Positions 22,922 through 40,991 of a DNA stretch of 64,000 nucleotides are shown here, piece by piece. The notes beneath the pieces are model-generated. The model ran no database searches and was not told the DNA's origin. It saw nothing but the letters and a program-made list of their open reading frames with translations. Source of the stretch: an uncultured Paraprevotella sp. (GTDB lineage: Bacteria > Bacteroidota > Bacteroidia > Bacteroidales > Bacteroidaceae); contig CALUKY010000014.1 in NCBI GenBank assembly GCA_944321345.1, forward strand, positions 1 to 64,000. The letters are read 5' to 3'. Positions within the stretch are counted from its first letter, which is position 1; the number at the start of each line of letters is the position of its first letter. Made by a program: the position numbers and the translations under genes.

Positions 22922-23881
22922 ATGGGATTATTCAGCTTTTTTTCTAGAGAAAAGAAAGAATCGCTTGACAAAGGACTCGAGAAAACCAAAGAAAGTTTTT
23001 TCGGTAAAATTACACGCGCTGTAGCCGGAAAATCTAAAGTAGATGATGAGGTGCTTGATAATTTGGAGGAGGTGCTGGTGACTTCGGATGTGGGTGTAGA
23101 TACAACTCTGAATATCATCAAACGTATCGAAGAACGTGTGGCAAGAGACAAATATGTTACGACAAGCGAACTGAACGGTATCCTGAGAGATGAGATCGCT
23201 TCATTGCTGACAGAAAATAACACCAGTGATATTGATGGTTTTGAACTGCCTGCGACAAAAACTCCGTATGTTATTATGGTTGTAGGAGTAAATGGTGTCG
23301 GAAAAACAACGACTATCGGAAAATTGGCTTATCAATTTAAGAAAGAGGGAAAGAAAGTTTATCTGGGGGCCGCTGATACATTCCGTGCCGCTGCCGTGGA
23401 GCAACTGGTAATTTGGAGTGAAAGAGTAGGAGTGCCTATTGTAAAGCAGCAGATGGGAAGTGATCCGGCATCGGTTGCTTTTGATACGCTGAGTTCTGCC
23501 GTAGCCAATCAGGCTGATGTCGTGCTGATTGATACAGCGGGTCGTTTGCATAATAAAAAGGGGCTTATGGATGAGCTTACCAAAATCAAACGGGTTATGC
23601 AGAAAGTGGTACCCGACGCTCCGCATGATGTGATGCTGGTGCTGGATGGCAGTACCGGACAAAATGCATTTGAGCAGGCCAAACAGTTTACTGCGGCTAC
23701 TGAAGTGACTTCAATGGCTATTACCAAATTGGACGGTACGGCCAAGGGCGGAGTCGTTATCGGTATTTCGGATCAGTTTAAGATTCCGGTCCGTTATATC
23801 GGCTTGGGCGAGGGAATGGAAGATTTGCAGCCTTTCAACCGAAAAGAGTTTGTGAATTCACTCTTCGGAGAAAACAAATAG
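22922..23881 (+). CDS. ftsY: Signal recognition particle receptor FtsY
   Basis: SRP receptor GTPase that docks translating ribosomes at the membrane translocon. 319 residues: a short N-terminal MGLFSFFSREKKES membrane-binding stretch replaces the long acidic A domain of E. coli; the N domain follows, then the G domain with GVNGVGKTTT, DTAGR, and TKLDGTAKGG, and the C-terminal GLGEGMEDLQPF closing loop. First gene of ftsY-rimO. Confidence 0.97.
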   Translation: MGLFSFFSREKKESLDKGLEKTKESFFGKITRAVAGKSKVDDEVLDNLEEVLVTSDVGVDTTLNIIKRIEERVARDKYVTTSELNGILRDEIASLLTENNTSDIDGFELPATKTPYVIMVVGVNGVGKTTTIGKLAYQFKKEGKKVYLGAADTFRAAAVEQLVIWSERVGVPIVKQQMGSDPASVAFDTLSSAVANQADVVLIDTAGRLHNKKGLMDELTKIKRVMQKVVPDAPHDVMLVLDGSTGQNAFEQAKQFTAATEVTSMAITKLDGTAKGGVVIGISDQFKIPVRYIGLGEGMEDLQPFNRKEFVNSLFGENK

Positions 23882-23892
23882 TTGTTGATTGA

Positions 23893-25200
23893 ATGAGTAC
23901 ACTGAAAAAAAATACGATTGATATCATTACACTGGGATGTTCGAAAAACCTGGTGGACTCGGAACAGCTGATTACCCAATTGCGTGCCAACGGCTATGAA
24001 GTGACACATGACGCAGAGAAACTCGAAGGGGATATTGTGGTCATCAATACATGTGGCTTTATCGGTGATGCCAAGGAAGAGAGCATCAATATGATTCTAG
24101 AGTGCTGTCAGGCCAAGGAAGAAGGTCAGTTGAGTAAAGTTTTTGTGATGGGATGCCTTTCTGAAAGATATTTGAAGGAGTTGGGCGAAGAGATTCCACA
24201 GGTAGACAAGTTCTACGGAAAGTTTAACTGGAAAGAACTCGTTTCTGATTTGGGAAAGACTTACCGTGAGGAATTGAAACTGGAGCGACAGATTACCACA
24301 CCGTCACATTATGCTTATTTGAAAATTTCTGAAGGTTGTAACCGCCATTGTTCATATTGTGCCATTCCGATTATCACCGGAAAGCATCAGTCACGCCCGA
24401 TGGAAGAAATTGTGGAAGAAGTTCGTGGGTTGGTTGCGAAAGGCGTGAAAGAATTTCAGGTCATTGCTCAGGAACTGACTTATTACGGCGTGGATCTGTA
24501 TCAGAAACAGATGTTGCCCGAACTGGTAGAACGTATCTCTGATATTCCGGGTGTAGAGTGGATCCGGTTGCATTATGCGTATCCGGCTCATTTTCCGGAA
24601 GATTTGTTACGGGTGATGCGTGAACGTGATAATGTGTGTAAGTATCTGGATATTGCCTTGCAGCATATCAGCGATCCGGTTCTTGAGAAAATGCGCCGTC
24701 ATGTGACATCAGAGCAGACCTATCGGTTGATTGAAAAGATGCGTTCTGAAGTGCCGGGAATACATTTGCGTACGACCTTGATGGTGGGGCATCCCGGTGA
24801 AGGCGAAAAAGAGTTTGCCGAACTGCTTGATTTTGTGAAGTGGGCCCGATTTGACCGTATGGGCGCTTTTGCTTATTCGGAAGAGGAAGGCACTTATTCG
24901 GCAGAGCATTATGAAGATGATATTCCTCAAGAGGTGAAAGAACATCGTTTGGATTTGTTGATGGCCTTGCAGCAGGATATTTCTGAAGATTTGTCTCAAC
25001 AGAAAGTAGGGCAGACTCTTAAGGTGATTATAGACCGTATTGAAGGAGATTATTATATAGGACGAACCGAGTTTGACTCTCCGGAAGTTGATCCGGAGGT
25101 CTTGATTTCTGTATCGGAAGGTGAATTGGAAATCGGAAACTTTTACCAAGTGAGAATTACAGCTTCTGATGCTTTTGATTTGTATGCAACGGTTCTTTAA
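23893..25200 (+). CDS. rimO: Ribosomal protein S12 methylthiotransferase RimO
   Basis: Radical-SAM methylthiotransferase that modifies the conserved aspartate of ribosomal protein S12. 435 residues: N-terminal UPF0004 domain with cysteines in LGCSKN, NTCGF and MGCLSER for the auxiliary cluster, radical SAM motif CNRHCSYCAIP, and a C-terminal TRAM domain (about 370-435). Eleven bases after ftsY. Confidence 0.96.
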   Translation: MSTLKKNTIDIITLGCSKNLVDSEQLITQLRANGYEVTHDAEKLEGDIVVINTCGFIGDAKEESINMILECCQAKEEGQLSKVFVMGCLSERYLKELGEEIPQVDKFYGKFNWKELVSDLGKTYREELKLERQITTPSHYAYLKISEGCNRHCSYCAIPIITGKHQSRPMEEIVEEVRGLVAKGVKEFQVIAQELTYYGVDLYQKQMLPELVERISDIPGVEWIRLHYAYPAHFPEDLLRVMRERDNVCKYLDIALQHISDPVLEKMRRHVTSEQTYRLIEKMRSEVPGIHLRTTLMVGHPGEGEKEFAELLDFVKWARFDRMGAFAYSEEEGTYSAEHYEDDIPQEVKEHRLDLLMALQQDISEDLSQQKVGQTLKVIIDRIEGDYYIGRTEFDSPEVDPEVLISVSEGELEIGNFYQVRITASDAFDLYATVL

Positions 25201-25211
25201 AAAAGAATATT

Positions 25212-25493
25212 TTGAATAATAAAGATTTTGTATCCGAATTATCTCGCAGGCTGGGGTATAGTCAAAAGGACAGCTCCGCTCTGTTGGGGGCACTGGTTGC
25301 CGAGATTTCCGCGCAACTGGAAGAGGACCGTATCGTTTCTCTTCCTGAATTTGGAAACTTTGAGGTGCGGAAAAAGTTGGAACGTGTGGTAATTAATCCA
25401 GCTACACAGCAACGTATGTTGGTTCCTCCGCGTTTGGTTGTTGCTTTTAAGCCAAGCGCACAGCTGAAAGATAAGTTTAACGAAGAAGCTTAA
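25212..25493 (+). CDS. HU/IHF family DNA-binding protein with TTG start
   Basis: A 93-residue HU-fold protein: N-terminal helices NNKDFVSELSRRLGYSQ, the FGNFEVRKK strand, a VVINPATQQRMLVPPRLVVAF arm with an intercalation-type proline, and a helical end. There is no in-frame ATG before residue ~70, so the start is TTG at 25212, 11 bases after the rimO stop. Its stop is four bases before the HU-LysM gene, which suggests that the two are made together. Confidence 0.82.
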   Translation: MNNKDFVSELSRRLGYSQKDSSALLGALVAEISAQLEEDRIVSLPEFGNFEVRKKLERVVINPATQQRMLVPPRLVVAFKPSAQLKDKFNEEA

Positions 25494-25497
25494 GGTT

Positions 25498-26934
25498 ATG
25501 AGTGGTCGGGCTTTATTGCAGGATTTAATTGTTGGGGTGGCTAAAAGGGCAAATATTTCGGAGCAAGAGGCCGAAACGTTTGTCCGTATGGTTTTTACTG
25601 TGATCTCAGACTCTTTGGCGGATGAGAAGATCATTAAAATAAGAAATCTGGGTACCTTTAAACTTGTGGAGATTGACGAGCGGGAGTCGGTAGATCCGAA
25701 TACCGGAGTCTTAACACGGGTGAAAGGGTACAGAAAGATTGTGTTTACTCCGGATAATGCTCTGAAAGACTTGATCAACAAGCCGTTTGCACAGTTCGAA
25801 ACGGTGATTCTGAATGATAATACGGATTTGGCTGAAATGGAGCGTGGTGCTGAATCTTCTTCGTTGATTGATGAAGAAGATGATGATGTGGCGCTTGATA
25901 TAGAGGAAAATCCAGAAGAACTTCTTGAGGATAACGGTTTGGCTGATGAAGCCATGTCGGAAGAAATTCCGGAAGAAGCATCAGACGTCACCTTGTCAGA
26001 TAAAAACGAAGAAACGGTATTGAAGGAGACTGTGCAGGATGATTCCATGAAGCTGGAGGAGAAGACAGATACAGAAAAGGTCGAAGAGGGTATCATCGAA
26101 GAGCCCGTGGGCGATGACATGTCAGTGGCACATGTTTTGTCTGATGAGGAAAAGATACAGCCGGATAGTGACATGGATATGGGGCAGACAAATCCAGAAG
26201 TTGATTCTGTTTCTTCTAGCATTGAATATCAGCATGCCGATTATCAGAAAATACAGGAGCAGAAGGTTGAGGAACTGAACGTAACAACACAGACTGTGGA
26301 GCATCAGACCATAGAACATCAGAGTATCGTGCATCAGGGTAGAGAAGAAAGTGGACGCCCAAACAGAAGTATGCGTATTTCTTTGGGAGGTATGATCGCT
26401 TTGTTTGTCTTTATTCTGGTGTTAATGACCGGTAGTTATCTGGTTGGGTATTACCGCTTGTTGTGTCCTTGCGTATTTTTGACTAAAGAGGAAAATTATT
26501 CAGAAATGCAGGTTTTGTCAGATAAAACTGATTCTCGGTCTGCCGTATGTCCGGTGCCAAAGGCCAAGCAGCATCCTGCGACGGATACTATTGGAAAGAC
26601 TCCAGAGAATCAGGCAACCAAGCAAATTGCGGCTCAGACTTCAAAACCGGTACAAACGGTTAAGCAGTCAGAAGCGAAAAGCAAGGAAGATTCATTGGCG
26701 CAATTGCGTAAAAAAGCAACACAATATCCACAGGTAAAGAACGGGGCTTATTTGATTGTAGGGGTTAAGTCTGTTCATACTCTGAAAAGCGGAGAGAGCC
26801 TTTTGCGCTTGGCGCAGAAAAATTATGGATCACGTGATTTTGTACAATATATTGTGGAGTTGAATCAGATCAAGAATCCAGATCTGGTACAGATAGGCAA
26901 GGAAATCAAACTGCCGGAACTGATCAAAAAGTAA
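25498..26934 (+). CDS. Membrane-spanning fusion of an HU DNA-binding domain and a LysM domain
   Basis: A 478-residue protein of unusual plan. Residues 1-95 are an HU-like DNA-binding domain (GVAKRANISEQEAETFVRM, IRNLGTFKLVEI, GYRKIVFTP). Residues 115-290 are a long acidic linker that ends with a VEHQTIEHQSIVHQ repeat. RPNRSMR then precedes one membrane helix (about 297-318, GMIALFVFILVLMTGSYLV). A flexible Lys/Gln/Thr-rich segment follows, then a LysM domain (about 424-474: HTLKSGESLLRLAQKNYGSR ... IGKEIKLPEL). The positive-inside rule puts HU in the cytoplasm and LysM in the periplasm. The simplest reading is a chromosome-to-peptidoglycan tether; DNA and wall binding are inferred from domains only. 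Confidence 0.85.
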   Translation: MSGRALLQDLIVGVAKRANISEQEAETFVRMVFTVISDSLADEKIIKIRNLGTFKLVEIDERESVDPNTGVLTRVKGYRKIVFTPDNALKDLINKPFAQFETVILNDNTDLAEMERGAESSSLIDEEDDDVALDIEENPEELLEDNGLADEAMSEEIPEEASDVTLSDKNEETVLKETVQDDSMKLEEKTDTEKVEEGIIEEPVGDDMSVAHVLSDEEKIQPDSDMDMGQTNPEVDSVSSSIEYQHADYQKIQEQKVEELNVTTQTVEHQTIEHQSIVHQGREESGRPNRSMRISLGGMIALFVFILVLMTGSYLVGYYRLLCPCVFLTKEENYSEMQVLSDKTDSRSAVCPVPKAKQHPATDTIGKTPENQATKQIAAQTSKPVQTVKQSEAKSKEDSLAQLRKKATQYPQVKNGAYLIVGVKSVHTLKSGESLLRLAQKNYGSRDFVQYIVELNQIKNPDLVQIGKEIKLPELIKK

Positions 26935-26960
26935 CGATAAATTATAATTGTAAACCGTGT

Positions 26961-26998
26961 AAAAAGTTTCTTAAATCCAGATTTGAGAAACTTTTTTT
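26961..26998 (+). terminator. Terminator of the ftsY-rimO-HU operon
   Basis: 16-base arms AAAAAGTTTCTTAAAT (26961-26976) and ATTTGAGAAACTTTTT (26981-26996), one G-T pair, CCAG loop, T run to 26998. Confidence 0.82.
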
Positions 26999-27080: not shown

Positions 27081-28076
27081 ATGGCAGAAGCATTAGATAT
27101 TCGTGAATTGAACGAACGTATTGAGCGTCAGAGTGCATTTGTAACAAACCTGATGACCGGTTTGGATCAGGTTATTGTTGGTCAGAAACACTTGGCTGAA
27201 TCTTTGTTGATTGGCTTGTTGAGTGATGGACATGTGTTGTTGGAAGGTGTTCCGGGTTTGGCAAAAACATTGGCTGTTAAAACTTTGTCATCTTTGATTG
27301 ATGCTCAGTTTAGCCGTATACAGTTTACTCCGGACTTGTTGCCTGCTGACGTGGTCGGTACGATGGTTTACAGTCAGAAAGACGAGGCTTTTGAGGTGAA
27401 GAAGGGTCCTATCTTCGCGAATTTCATTTTGGCGGATGAGATTAACCGTGCTCCGGCAAAGGTACAGAGTGCTTTGCTCGAAGCAATGCAGGAAAGACAA
27501 GTTACTATCAGCAAGAATACTTATAAACTTCCGGAACCGTTTCTGGTATTGGCTACTCAGAATCCTATTGAGCAGGAAGGAACCTATCCGTTACCGGAAG
27601 CTCAGGTAGACCGTTTTATGCTGAAAGTGATTATCGACTATCCGAAACTGGAAGAAGAGAAAAAGATTATTCGGATGAATATTGCCGGAGAGAAGAAGAC
27701 CGTGAAGCCGATTCTGACAACTCAGGATATTATCAATGCCCGCGAAGTCGTAAAACAGGTTTATCTGGATGAGAAGATCGAGCAGTATATCGTAGATATT
27801 GTATTTGCTACCCGTTATCCGGAGAAATATGGCTTGAAAGATCTGGAAAACTATATTGAGTTTGGAGGATCACCCCGTGCTTCTATTAATCTGGCTCTAG
27901 CCGCACGTGCTTATGCTTTCATCAAGAGAAGAGGTTATGTGATACCGGAAGATGTACGCGCCGTTGCTTATGATGTGTTGCGCCATCGTATCGGATTGTC
28001 ATATGAGGCTGAGGCTAATAATATACATAGTGAGGATATCATCAGCAAGATATTGAATCGGGTAGAAGTACCTTAA
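27081..28076 (+). CDS. moxR: MoxR family AAA+ ATPase
   Basis: Chaperone-like ATPase thought to activate or mature the von Willebrand proteins of the same operon. 331 residues with Walker A GVPGLAKT, Walker B LADEINRAP, sensor ATQNPIEQEGTYPLPEAQVDRF, and the C-terminal AAA lid GSPRASINLALAARA. First gene of the Bat (Bacteroides aerotolerance) operon. Confidence 0.95.
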   Translation: MAEALDIRELNERIERQSAFVTNLMTGLDQVIVGQKHLAESLLIGLLSDGHVLLEGVPGLAKTLAVKTLSSLIDAQFSRIQFTPDLLPADVVGTMVYSQKDEAFEVKKGPIFANFILADEINRAPAKVQSALLEAMQERQVTISKNTYKLPEPFLVLATQNPIEQEGTYPLPEAQVDRFMLKVIIDYPKLEEEKKIIRMNIAGEKKTVKPILTTQDIINAREVVKQVYLDEKIEQYIVDIVFATRYPEKYGLKDLENYIEFGGSPRASINLALAARAYAFIKRRGYVIPEDVRAVAYDVLRHRIGLSYEAEANNIHSEDIISKILNRVEVP

Positions 28077-38875: not shown

Positions 38876-40450
38876 CTATTTGCTGTCTACTTCTTCTTTC
38901 ATATCGATTTCCTGTCCGTTTCCGTCATAGAATTCATATTGCAGGAAAGCAAGTTTCTGACTCGGGATGATTTTTACTCCGAATCCGTATTTCATCTGCC
39001 ATTTCCGCTTCAGCGACAGAAAACCTTGGTTAATGTAGGCTGCTACGTAAGGATGTACGTGCAGTGCGAACTGCTTCATTCCGATTTTGTTTACCAGTGT
39101 GTTGATTTTTCCTTCAAGAATGTCGGTAAACAAATAGCTGGATTTAATGGTTCCCTTTCCAAAACATGTAGGGCAGGTTTCCTCTACGTTTACGTCCATT
39201 ACCGGGCGTACACGCTGACGGGTGATCTGCATCAGGCCGAATTTACTCAATGGAAGAATATTGTGGCGCGCACGGTCTTTTTTCATGTTCTCGCACATGC
39301 GTTCATAAAGTTTTTGCCGGTCTTCCGCCAGATTCATGTCAATGAAGTCCACCACGATAATTCCTCCCATATCTCTTAATCTCAGTTGGCGTGCCAATTC
39401 ATCTGCTGCACCCAGATTCACGTCCAGAGCGTTTGCTTCCTGTCCGTCCTTTGATTTGGCACGGTTTCCGCTGTTTACATCAACTACATGGAGCGCTTCT
39501 GTATGTTCAATGATCAAATAAGCTCCATGTTTGTAGGAAACGGTTTTTCCAAATGAGGATTTAATTTGTTTGGTGATGTCGAAGTTGTCAAAGATCGGTA
39601 ACTTTCCGGTATATTTCTTTACGATTTTCGCACTTTCCGGTGCGATGAGGGTTACGTAATCCTTTACTTCGTTGAATACACTTTCGTCATTGATGTAGAT
39701 ATTTTCGTAAGATGGGTTGAACAGGTCGCGCAACATGGCTACGGTGCGGCTGGTTTCTTCGTAAACCAGTTCCGGCAGTTTGGTTGCCTTTTGCACTTTG
39801 GTCATAGTGTCTTCCCATCGTTTCAGTAATATCTTTAATTCGGTGTCGAGTTCAGCCACTCTTTTTCCTTCGGCCACTGTTCTTACAATTACTCCGAAAT
39901 TTTTAGGCTTGATACTCTGCAGTAATTGCTTGAGTCGTGCTCTTTCCTCGGAAGACTTGATTTTTGAGGAAACGGAAACTTTATCGCTAAAAGGAATAAG
40001 AACCAGATATCTTCCTGGGAAAGACAACTCGCAGGTGAGTCGGGGACCTTTCGTGGAGATCGGTTCTTTAACGACCTGTACCAATACTTCCTGTCCCGGC
40101 TGAAGGATATTCTGCACACTTCCTTCCTTGTCCAGTTCCGGCTGCATGGTTGCTTTGGCCATGGGATAAAGCTTTTTGCGGTCGCTGACTACTTGTTTCA
40201 GATATTTTTGGTAGGAATTAAATTGAGGCCCTAAATCCAGATAGTGAAGAAAAGCGTCGCGTTCGTAGCCCACATTGACAAAACATGCATTGAGTCCCGG
40301 CATCATCTTCTTGACTTTTGCCAAATAGACATTGCCAACGGCGAATGACACGGACAAGCCTTCTTTTTGAAACTCCACAAGTCTTTTGTCCTCAAGAAGA
40401 GCAATGGAGATTTCTTTGGGTTGGACGTCTACTACTACTTCGCTGGTCAT
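38876..40450 (-). CDS. rng: Ribonuclease G/E family protein
   Basis: 524-residue endoribonuclease involved in rRNA maturation and mRNA decay. An N-terminal S1-like part (VGNVYLAKVKKMMPGLNACFVNVG), catalytic Asp residues in HVVDVNSGN and IIVVDFIDMN, and the zinc-link CPTCFGKG are all present. Length fits RNase G without the scaffold tail of RNase E. Its leader carries a large hairpin 42 bases before the ATG. Probably co-transcribed with the small basic gene and HU upstream. Confidence 0.95.
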   Translation of the reverse strand: MTSEVVVDVQPKEISIALLEDKRLVEFQKEGLSVSFAVGNVYLAKVKKMMPGLNACFVNVGYERDAFLHYLDLGPQFNSYQKYLKQVVSDRKKLYPMAKATMQPELDKEGSVQNILQPGQEVLVQVVKEPISTKGPRLTCELSFPGRYLVLIPFSDKVSVSSKIKSSEERARLKQLLQSIKPKNFGVIVRTVAEGKRVAELDTELKILLKRWEDTMTKVQKATKLPELVYEETSRTVAMLRDLFNPSYENIYINDESVFNEVKDYVTLIAPESAKIVKKYTGKLPIFDNFDITKQIKSSFGKTVSYKHGAYLIIEHTEALHVVDVNSGNRAKSKDGQEANALDVNLGAADELARQLRLRDMGGIIVVDFIDMNLAEDRQKLYERMCENMKKDRARHNILPLSKFGLMQITRQRVRPVMDVNVEETCPTCFGKGTIKSSYLFTDILEGKINTLVNKIGMKQFALHVHPYVAAYINQGFLSLKRKWQMKYGFGVKIIPSQKLAFLQYEFYDGNGQEIDMKEEVDSK

Positions 40451-40712: not shown

Positions 40713-40991
40713 TTATTTCTTTACAGCATCCACGAAAACCTTTGCAGGCTTGAAAGCCGGGATGTTGTGCTCCTCAATAATGATTGTGGTGTTTTTGGAG
40801 ATGTTTCTTGCAGTTTTCTGCGCACGTTTCTTCAGAATAAAACTTCCGAATCCGCGGAGATATACATTCTCCTCATTAGTTGTCAAAGATTCCTTTACGG
40901 TGTCCATAAATGCTTCTACCGTGGTTAAAACCGTCGATTTGTCAATTCCGGTTTTTCTCGAAATCTCATTTACTATATCTGCTTTTGTCAT
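40713..40991 (-). CDS. HU/IHF family DNA-binding protein
   Basis: 92-residue nucleoid protein: MTKADIVNEISRKTGIDK helices, VYLRGFGSFILKKRAQKTAR strand and arm, and IPAFKPAKVFVDAVKK end. A TATATTTG -7 box (minus strand 41052-41045) lies 53 bases upstream. Likely first gene of a unit with the mS38-like gene and rng. Confidence 0.95.
   Translation of the reverse strand: MTKADIVNEISRKTGIDKSTVLTTVEAFMDTVKESLTTNEENVYLRGFGSFILKKRAQKTARNISKNTTIIIEEHNIPAFKPAKVFVDAVKK

Follow-up and report, generated by a model that had tools for sequence, protein, structure and literature searches.

A pair of HU subunits, one joined to a LysM domain, as a candidate nucleoid-to-cell-wall tether in Bacteroidota

Architecture and conservation of the two HU genes

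Two adjacent genes encoding HU-fold proteins lie in a 64,000-nucleotide stretch of DNA (the window) from an uncultured Paraprevotella sp., whose draft genome is 2.9 Mb and 91% complete. The first gene, HUa (25212 to 25493), starts with TTG and encodes a free HU subunit of 93 amino acids that matches Pfam family PF00216 with 87.7 bits (cut-off 22.4). Four bases after its end, an ATG codon opens the second gene (25498 to 26934), which encodes a membrane-anchored HU subunit of 478 amino acids that we call HUb-TM-LysM. In this protein, an HU domain (HUb) is followed by an acidic linker, a single transmembrane (TM) helix and a LysM domain. An earlier reading of the DNA letters (the original prediction) had proposed this architecture and noted the ordinary HU gene before it; Pfam matches and an AlphaFold2 model confirm both. 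Both genes and the features described in the next paragraphs are on the forward strand.

The HU fold of HUb, as delimited from AlphaFold2 and a residue alignment, covers residues 1 to 94 (25498 to 25779). PF00216 matches residues 8 to 94 (E 5e-17, 62.3 bits, same cut-off), and was detected in all 29 members at E 0.01. The AlphaFold2 model, which was built with 29 sequences, has ten-residue confidence means of 72 to 95 in the HU region (1 to 97) and of 92 to 97 around LysM (418 to 477), with a helix at 296 to 322 and a linker that is mostly below 50, that is, disordered. The tertiary fold is that of HU: Foldseek returned 44 matches at E ≤0.001 (best E 1.2e-7), with HU, IHF and related chains among the matches listed. 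Directly after the fold is a conserved extension, NKPFAQFETVIL (residues 94 to 112; 25777 to 25833), whose N94 and P96 are invariant in 29 rows. This NKPFxxFE extension was not seen in HUa, and is recognizable also in the single-chain proteins described below.

The remainder of the protein begins with the acidic disordered linker (residues 113 to 285; 25834 to 26352), which is presumably cytoplasmic and in which D/E account for 33% and K/R for 5% of the residues (106 to 273 scored). Five-residue repeats of the form Q-x-[VI]-x-x (residues 249 to 280; 26242 to 26337) were recognized by reading directly before the membrane helix (residues 294 to 322; 26377 to 26463). The number of units, also judged by reading, varies among close relatives, with about six in the window and more in locus L013. 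A weakly conserved and presumably periplasmic spacer (residues 323 to 417; 26464 to 26748) then leads to the LysM domain (residues 427 to 473; 26776 to 26916), which matches PF01476 with 22.2 bits (cut-off 20.9).

When the window is compared with a same-genus relative (G008), the HU part has a ratio of nonsynonymous to synonymous substitution rates (dN/dS) of 0.08 (dS 1.54). Synonymous sites are saturated in the LysM part, where amino acid identity is 79%. The low ratio and the conservation of LysM indicate that HUb-TM-LysM is a conserved protein under selection, and rule out a chance or broken open reading frame.

For comparisons among relatives, we used a first set of 29 HUa/HUb pairs from close relatives and a second set of 26 pairs, four of which come from genomes already in the first, so that the two sets hold 51 distinct pairs. 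Because the HU fold occupies the extreme N-terminus, there is no room for a signal peptide. In the window protein, the 20-residue flanks of the helix hold four K/R on the N-terminal side and two on the C-terminal side. An excess on the N-terminal side is found in 41 of the 51 distinct proteins, with fewer in four and equal numbers in six; one further protein (L032) was under the helix threshold in this count. This bias fits a predicted topology with the N-terminus inside and the C-terminus outside. The proposal that HU and LysM lie on opposite sides of the membrane thus agrees with the positive-inside rule, as a prediction.

DNA-contact residues and evidence for a heterodimer

We compared DNA-contact residues, numbered on S. 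aureus HU, in HUa, HUb and 30 ordinary HU frames taken from the best-scoring HU loci of related genomes. Ordinary HU is basic at positions 55, 58 and 80 in 30/30 frames, carries P63 in 25/30 and has a mean arm charge of +4.6. Because position 53 is seldom basic in these frames (6/30) and position 86 never is (0/30), these two positions do not discriminate. In the first set, HUa is basic at 53 and 55 in 29/29 and at 58 and 80 in 28/29, has P63 in 29/29 and has a mean arm charge of +5.3. HUb, in contrast, is basic only at 58 (28/29), with no basic residue at 53, 55 or 80 in any of the 29 proteins; P63 is present in two and absent from 27, and the arm charge is -0.5. The second set is similar, with P63 in 24/26, K/R55 in 24/26, K/R80 in 20/26 and an arm charge of +5.2 for HUa, versus 2/26, 0/26, 2/26 and +0.1 for HUb. 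Therefore, by the arm basic residues, the tip proline and K80, HUa looks like a canonical DNA-binding HU, whereas HUb does not.

The window copies follow this division. HUa keeps the DNA-contact residues at 53, 55, 58, 63, 80 and 86, whereas HUb has V57 and I59 in place of R53 and R55, T84 in place of K80 and a neutral arm. The window HUb does retain a tip proline, P67 in the sequence DPNTG, and is one of the two HUb proteins with proline at position 63. Elsewhere the HUb arm is missing (L056, L063, L065, L072 and L154), short (family f75), or NPQTG or near it (L064, L068 and seven loci of family f172). The core fold is shared with ordinary HU, as are G48, F50 and F79, which do not vary in any of 29 HUb rows. 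The original prediction had named loss of arm and core residues as an outcome that would tell against it, and half of this is what we find: basic residues at 53, 55 and 80 are gone from HUb, as is the tip proline in 27 of 29, and the HU core is kept. Given this loss and the retention in HUa, any contact of a complex with DNA would most likely be made mainly through HUa. In the simplest history suggested by these sequences, DNA was originally contacted by both halves, and HUb later became an anchor.

Several lineages carry both HU subunits in one natural chain, arranged as HU-HU-linker-TM-LysM. Among 23 such loci (L099 to L121), both HU halves were detected by profile (E 0.05) in 20; in L110, L115 and L119, one half is visible only in the alignment. 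A tree of RimO requires at least two changes between the split and single-chain states. AlphaFold2 confidently folds one natural single chain, and engineered single-chain IHF (PDB 2iie, 2iif) is a partial match among its structural matches. These single chains, together with the RimO tree, the predicted fold and the coupling of the two genes, make it very probable that HUa and HUb form a heterodimer; the natural fusions give good support to the earlier suggestion that HUa is the partner. The tip proline is kept in the HUa half of 19 of the 23 single chains, a total that takes in those of family f31, whose HUa arm charges are +5, +5 and +2.

Two single chains, L154:520-1968 and L072:703-1788, have a short-armed second HU half. 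These second halves match PF18175 (HU-CCDC81_bac_2) with 25.7 and 24.7 bits, respectively, under the cut-off of 35. CCDC81-type tandem HU proteins could have derived from such a single chain.

Distribution and genomic context

A search with the window protein matched 32 of 61 genomes, of which 28 belong to its own family. HUa is directly upstream in 29 of 30 loci (L007 to L036); the remaining locus is cut by a contig end. A survey across the order, as the original prediction had suggested, showed that the pair recurs. In a profile search, 32 of 149 genomes match at 1e-12, and 29 (the window's included) were kept, representing 18 family codes; 26 have a separate HUa and three a fused one. We dropped G088 and G166, which by reading are unrelated TM-LysM proteins, and G172, which by its table row is an HU-only frame of 105 amino acids. 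In L064:794-1824 (reverse strand), which is counted among the 26, the HU half and the TM-LysM half are in overlapping frames, either because the gene is truly split or because the sequence contains an error.

Among 197 genomes sampled across the class, 34 match, of which eight are real cases, all from the same order; the other 26 were dropped as HU-only or LysM-only by their table spans, with L073 alone read among those loci. The resulting picture of a module confined to one order was overturned by a phylum-wide sample of 247 genomes, in which 25 genomes of family f172, from another class, match. Five of 33 matches in this sample (G307, G490, G526, G575 and G624) were dropped as HU-only or LysM-only frames of at most 106 amino acids by table. 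In all seven f172 loci inspected, those ranked among the best matches, HUa overlaps or is a few bases from a protein with the order HU, acidic linker, TM and LysM. No relatives of RimO, MoxR or FtsY were found on these seven short loci. Wherever upstream DNA is available in inspected loci, HUa adjoins the second gene, often with an overlap, or is fused to it. In one genome of the window's family (G025, 99% complete), no HU-TM-LysM fusion was found by a profile search at 1e-4, and the HUa profile matched two short HU frames. Occurrence across the order and in f172 points to a patchily distributed module that is either old or has been transferred within the phylum.

The gene order in the window is ftsY, rimO, HUa, HUb-TM-LysM, a MoxR-type AAA gene and a DUF58 gene. 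The forward-strand gene rimO (23893 to 25200) lies upstream of HUa in the window and in 18 of the 20 upstream regions that were retrieved; ftsY (22922 to 23881, forward) precedes it and was found in 16 of the 20. The MoxR-type gene (27081 to 28076, forward) follows HUb-TM-LysM here and in many of the loci whose flanks are long enough. Scans for promoters (11 versus 9.3 in shuffled sequence) and terminators (5 versus 3.1) gave nothing convincing for the HUa/HUb pair. By eye, an inverted repeat rich in A+T, with a T-run after it, is present 3' of the fusion gene (26960 to 26998); it is not in the terminator-scan output and is possibly the operon end. A defence role was considered and rejected, as PADLOC gave no match at E 0.001 for HUa or HUb-TM-LysM.

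The window holds a third HU gene (40713 to 40991, reverse strand, 92 amino acids), which has NIS at its arm tip where NPQ is expected and adjoins a gene that by reading is RNase G/E-like (38876 to 40450). For P. gingivalis, one publication (PMC3969353) states that the hupA-type HU PG1258 has been suggested to be essential.

Relation to known systems and interpretation

Burroughs et al. reportedly described, in 2017, HU-CCDC81-TM-SPOR proteins of Bacteroidota and suggested that HU and a wall-binding domain together could link chromosome and envelope. Those proteins resemble the HUa/HUb module in that two HU domains in tandem are combined with a membrane helix and a wall-binding domain. However, they use CCDC81-type HU and SPOR, whereas the module uses PF00216-type HU and LysM, with its HU halves mostly in two genes. 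The window protein scores 17.3 bits with PF18175 (cut-off 35) and has neither PF18174 nor SPOR at E 1. The same genome also encodes an HU-CCDC81-type tandem-HU protein with a TM helix and a SPOR-like end (L085:1324-2337 on G000:C17, GTG start), which scores 80.4 bits with PF18174, 51.3 bits with PF18175 and 20.1 bits with SPOR (just under the cut-off of 21), and is a candidate second envelope-linked HU.

IHF and heterodimeric HU resemble the HUa/HUb pair in having two different HU-fold subunits per dimer, but HUb is membrane-anchored and its arm has lost some DNA-contact residues. NCBIfam IHF models score at best 64.6 bits for HUa and 42.7 bits for HUb, below the cut-off of 111. Other LysM membrane proteins of Bacteroidota (L066, L069 and L073) share the TM helix and C-terminal LysM, but by reading carry a Cys-rich (zinc-ribbon-like) segment or a PP2C-like phosphatase instead of HU, which suggests that TM-LysM has been reused as a wall anchor within the phylum. 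A literature search of titles and abstract openings found no description of an HU-TM-LysM protein, and a term search of a Mycoplasma paper (PMC11864180) found none of the terms DNA-binding, histone, integration host factor and nucleoid. The new part seems to be a split heterodimer with one anchored half, together with its natural single-chain forms.

We propose that HUa and HUb would form one asymmetric HU heterodimer beneath the inner membrane, in which the HUa arm would contact nucleoid DNA and HUb would be the dimerization half with a neutral arm. The acidic linker would keep the anchor flexible and away from DNA, and the single helix would join cytoplasmic HUb to a periplasmic LysM domain that would hold peptidoglycan, giving a loose tether between nucleoid and cell wall. 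DNA binding, peptidoglycan binding and tethering are what we infer from these features, and we give the full reading about an even chance. We rate it no higher because of two observations that weigh against it: in the 20 rows of f75 single chains the HUa arm, too, has a charge close to zero, so that both halves are weak-armed, and the best structural matches of the modelled single chain include doublet-microtubule and gliding-machine chains, from structures without DNA.

The same two observations are what would be expected if HUa-HUb were a structural scaffold whose ligand is a protein, not DNA, and which links this cytoplasmic partner to the wall. The tandem HU domains of CCDC81 reportedly bind protein in microtubules, and this explanation would also account for the neutral or deleted HUb arm, the resemblance of the L154 and L072 second halves to PF18175 (although below its cut-off) and the conserved NKPFxxF extension, for which no partner is known. 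However, basic residue 55 and the tip proline of HUa persist nearly throughout both sets of pairs, and the HUb of f172 loci, L064 and L068 retains an NPQTG-like arm. We therefore regard a scaffold as possible but unlikely.

Tight coupling of the two genes and the apparent inability of HUb to bind DNA could also mean that HUb controls the level of free HUa by trapping it in an inactive heterodimer at the membrane, with no tethering. We consider this quite improbable, because it leaves the conserved LysM unexplained and because single chains have no free HUa to capture. A more direct version of the original prediction, in which a HUb homodimer binds DNA on its own and links it to peptidoglycan, with HUa optional, could appeal to R58, the intact core and the tip proline of the window copy. 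It appears very improbable given the basic residues and P63 missing from HUb, the deletion of the arm in several lineages, and the presence or fusion of HUa in every inspected locus with upstream DNA available.

Under the tether reading, Bacteroidota may own a dedicated, ancient nucleoid-to-peptidoglycan tether, in which an HU heterodimer divides its labour and has repeatedly been rewired into a single chain; we hold this broader claim tentatively, at somewhat less than even confidence. To our knowledge, how the nucleoid is positioned and coupled to wall growth in Bacteroidota is poorly understood, and a protein reaching from HU to LysM is a direct candidate for a physical link between chromosome and wall. 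An HU heterodimer could be studied cleanly in the natural single chains, and the recurrent loss of one arm would represent HU evolving from a DNA binder toward an anchor.
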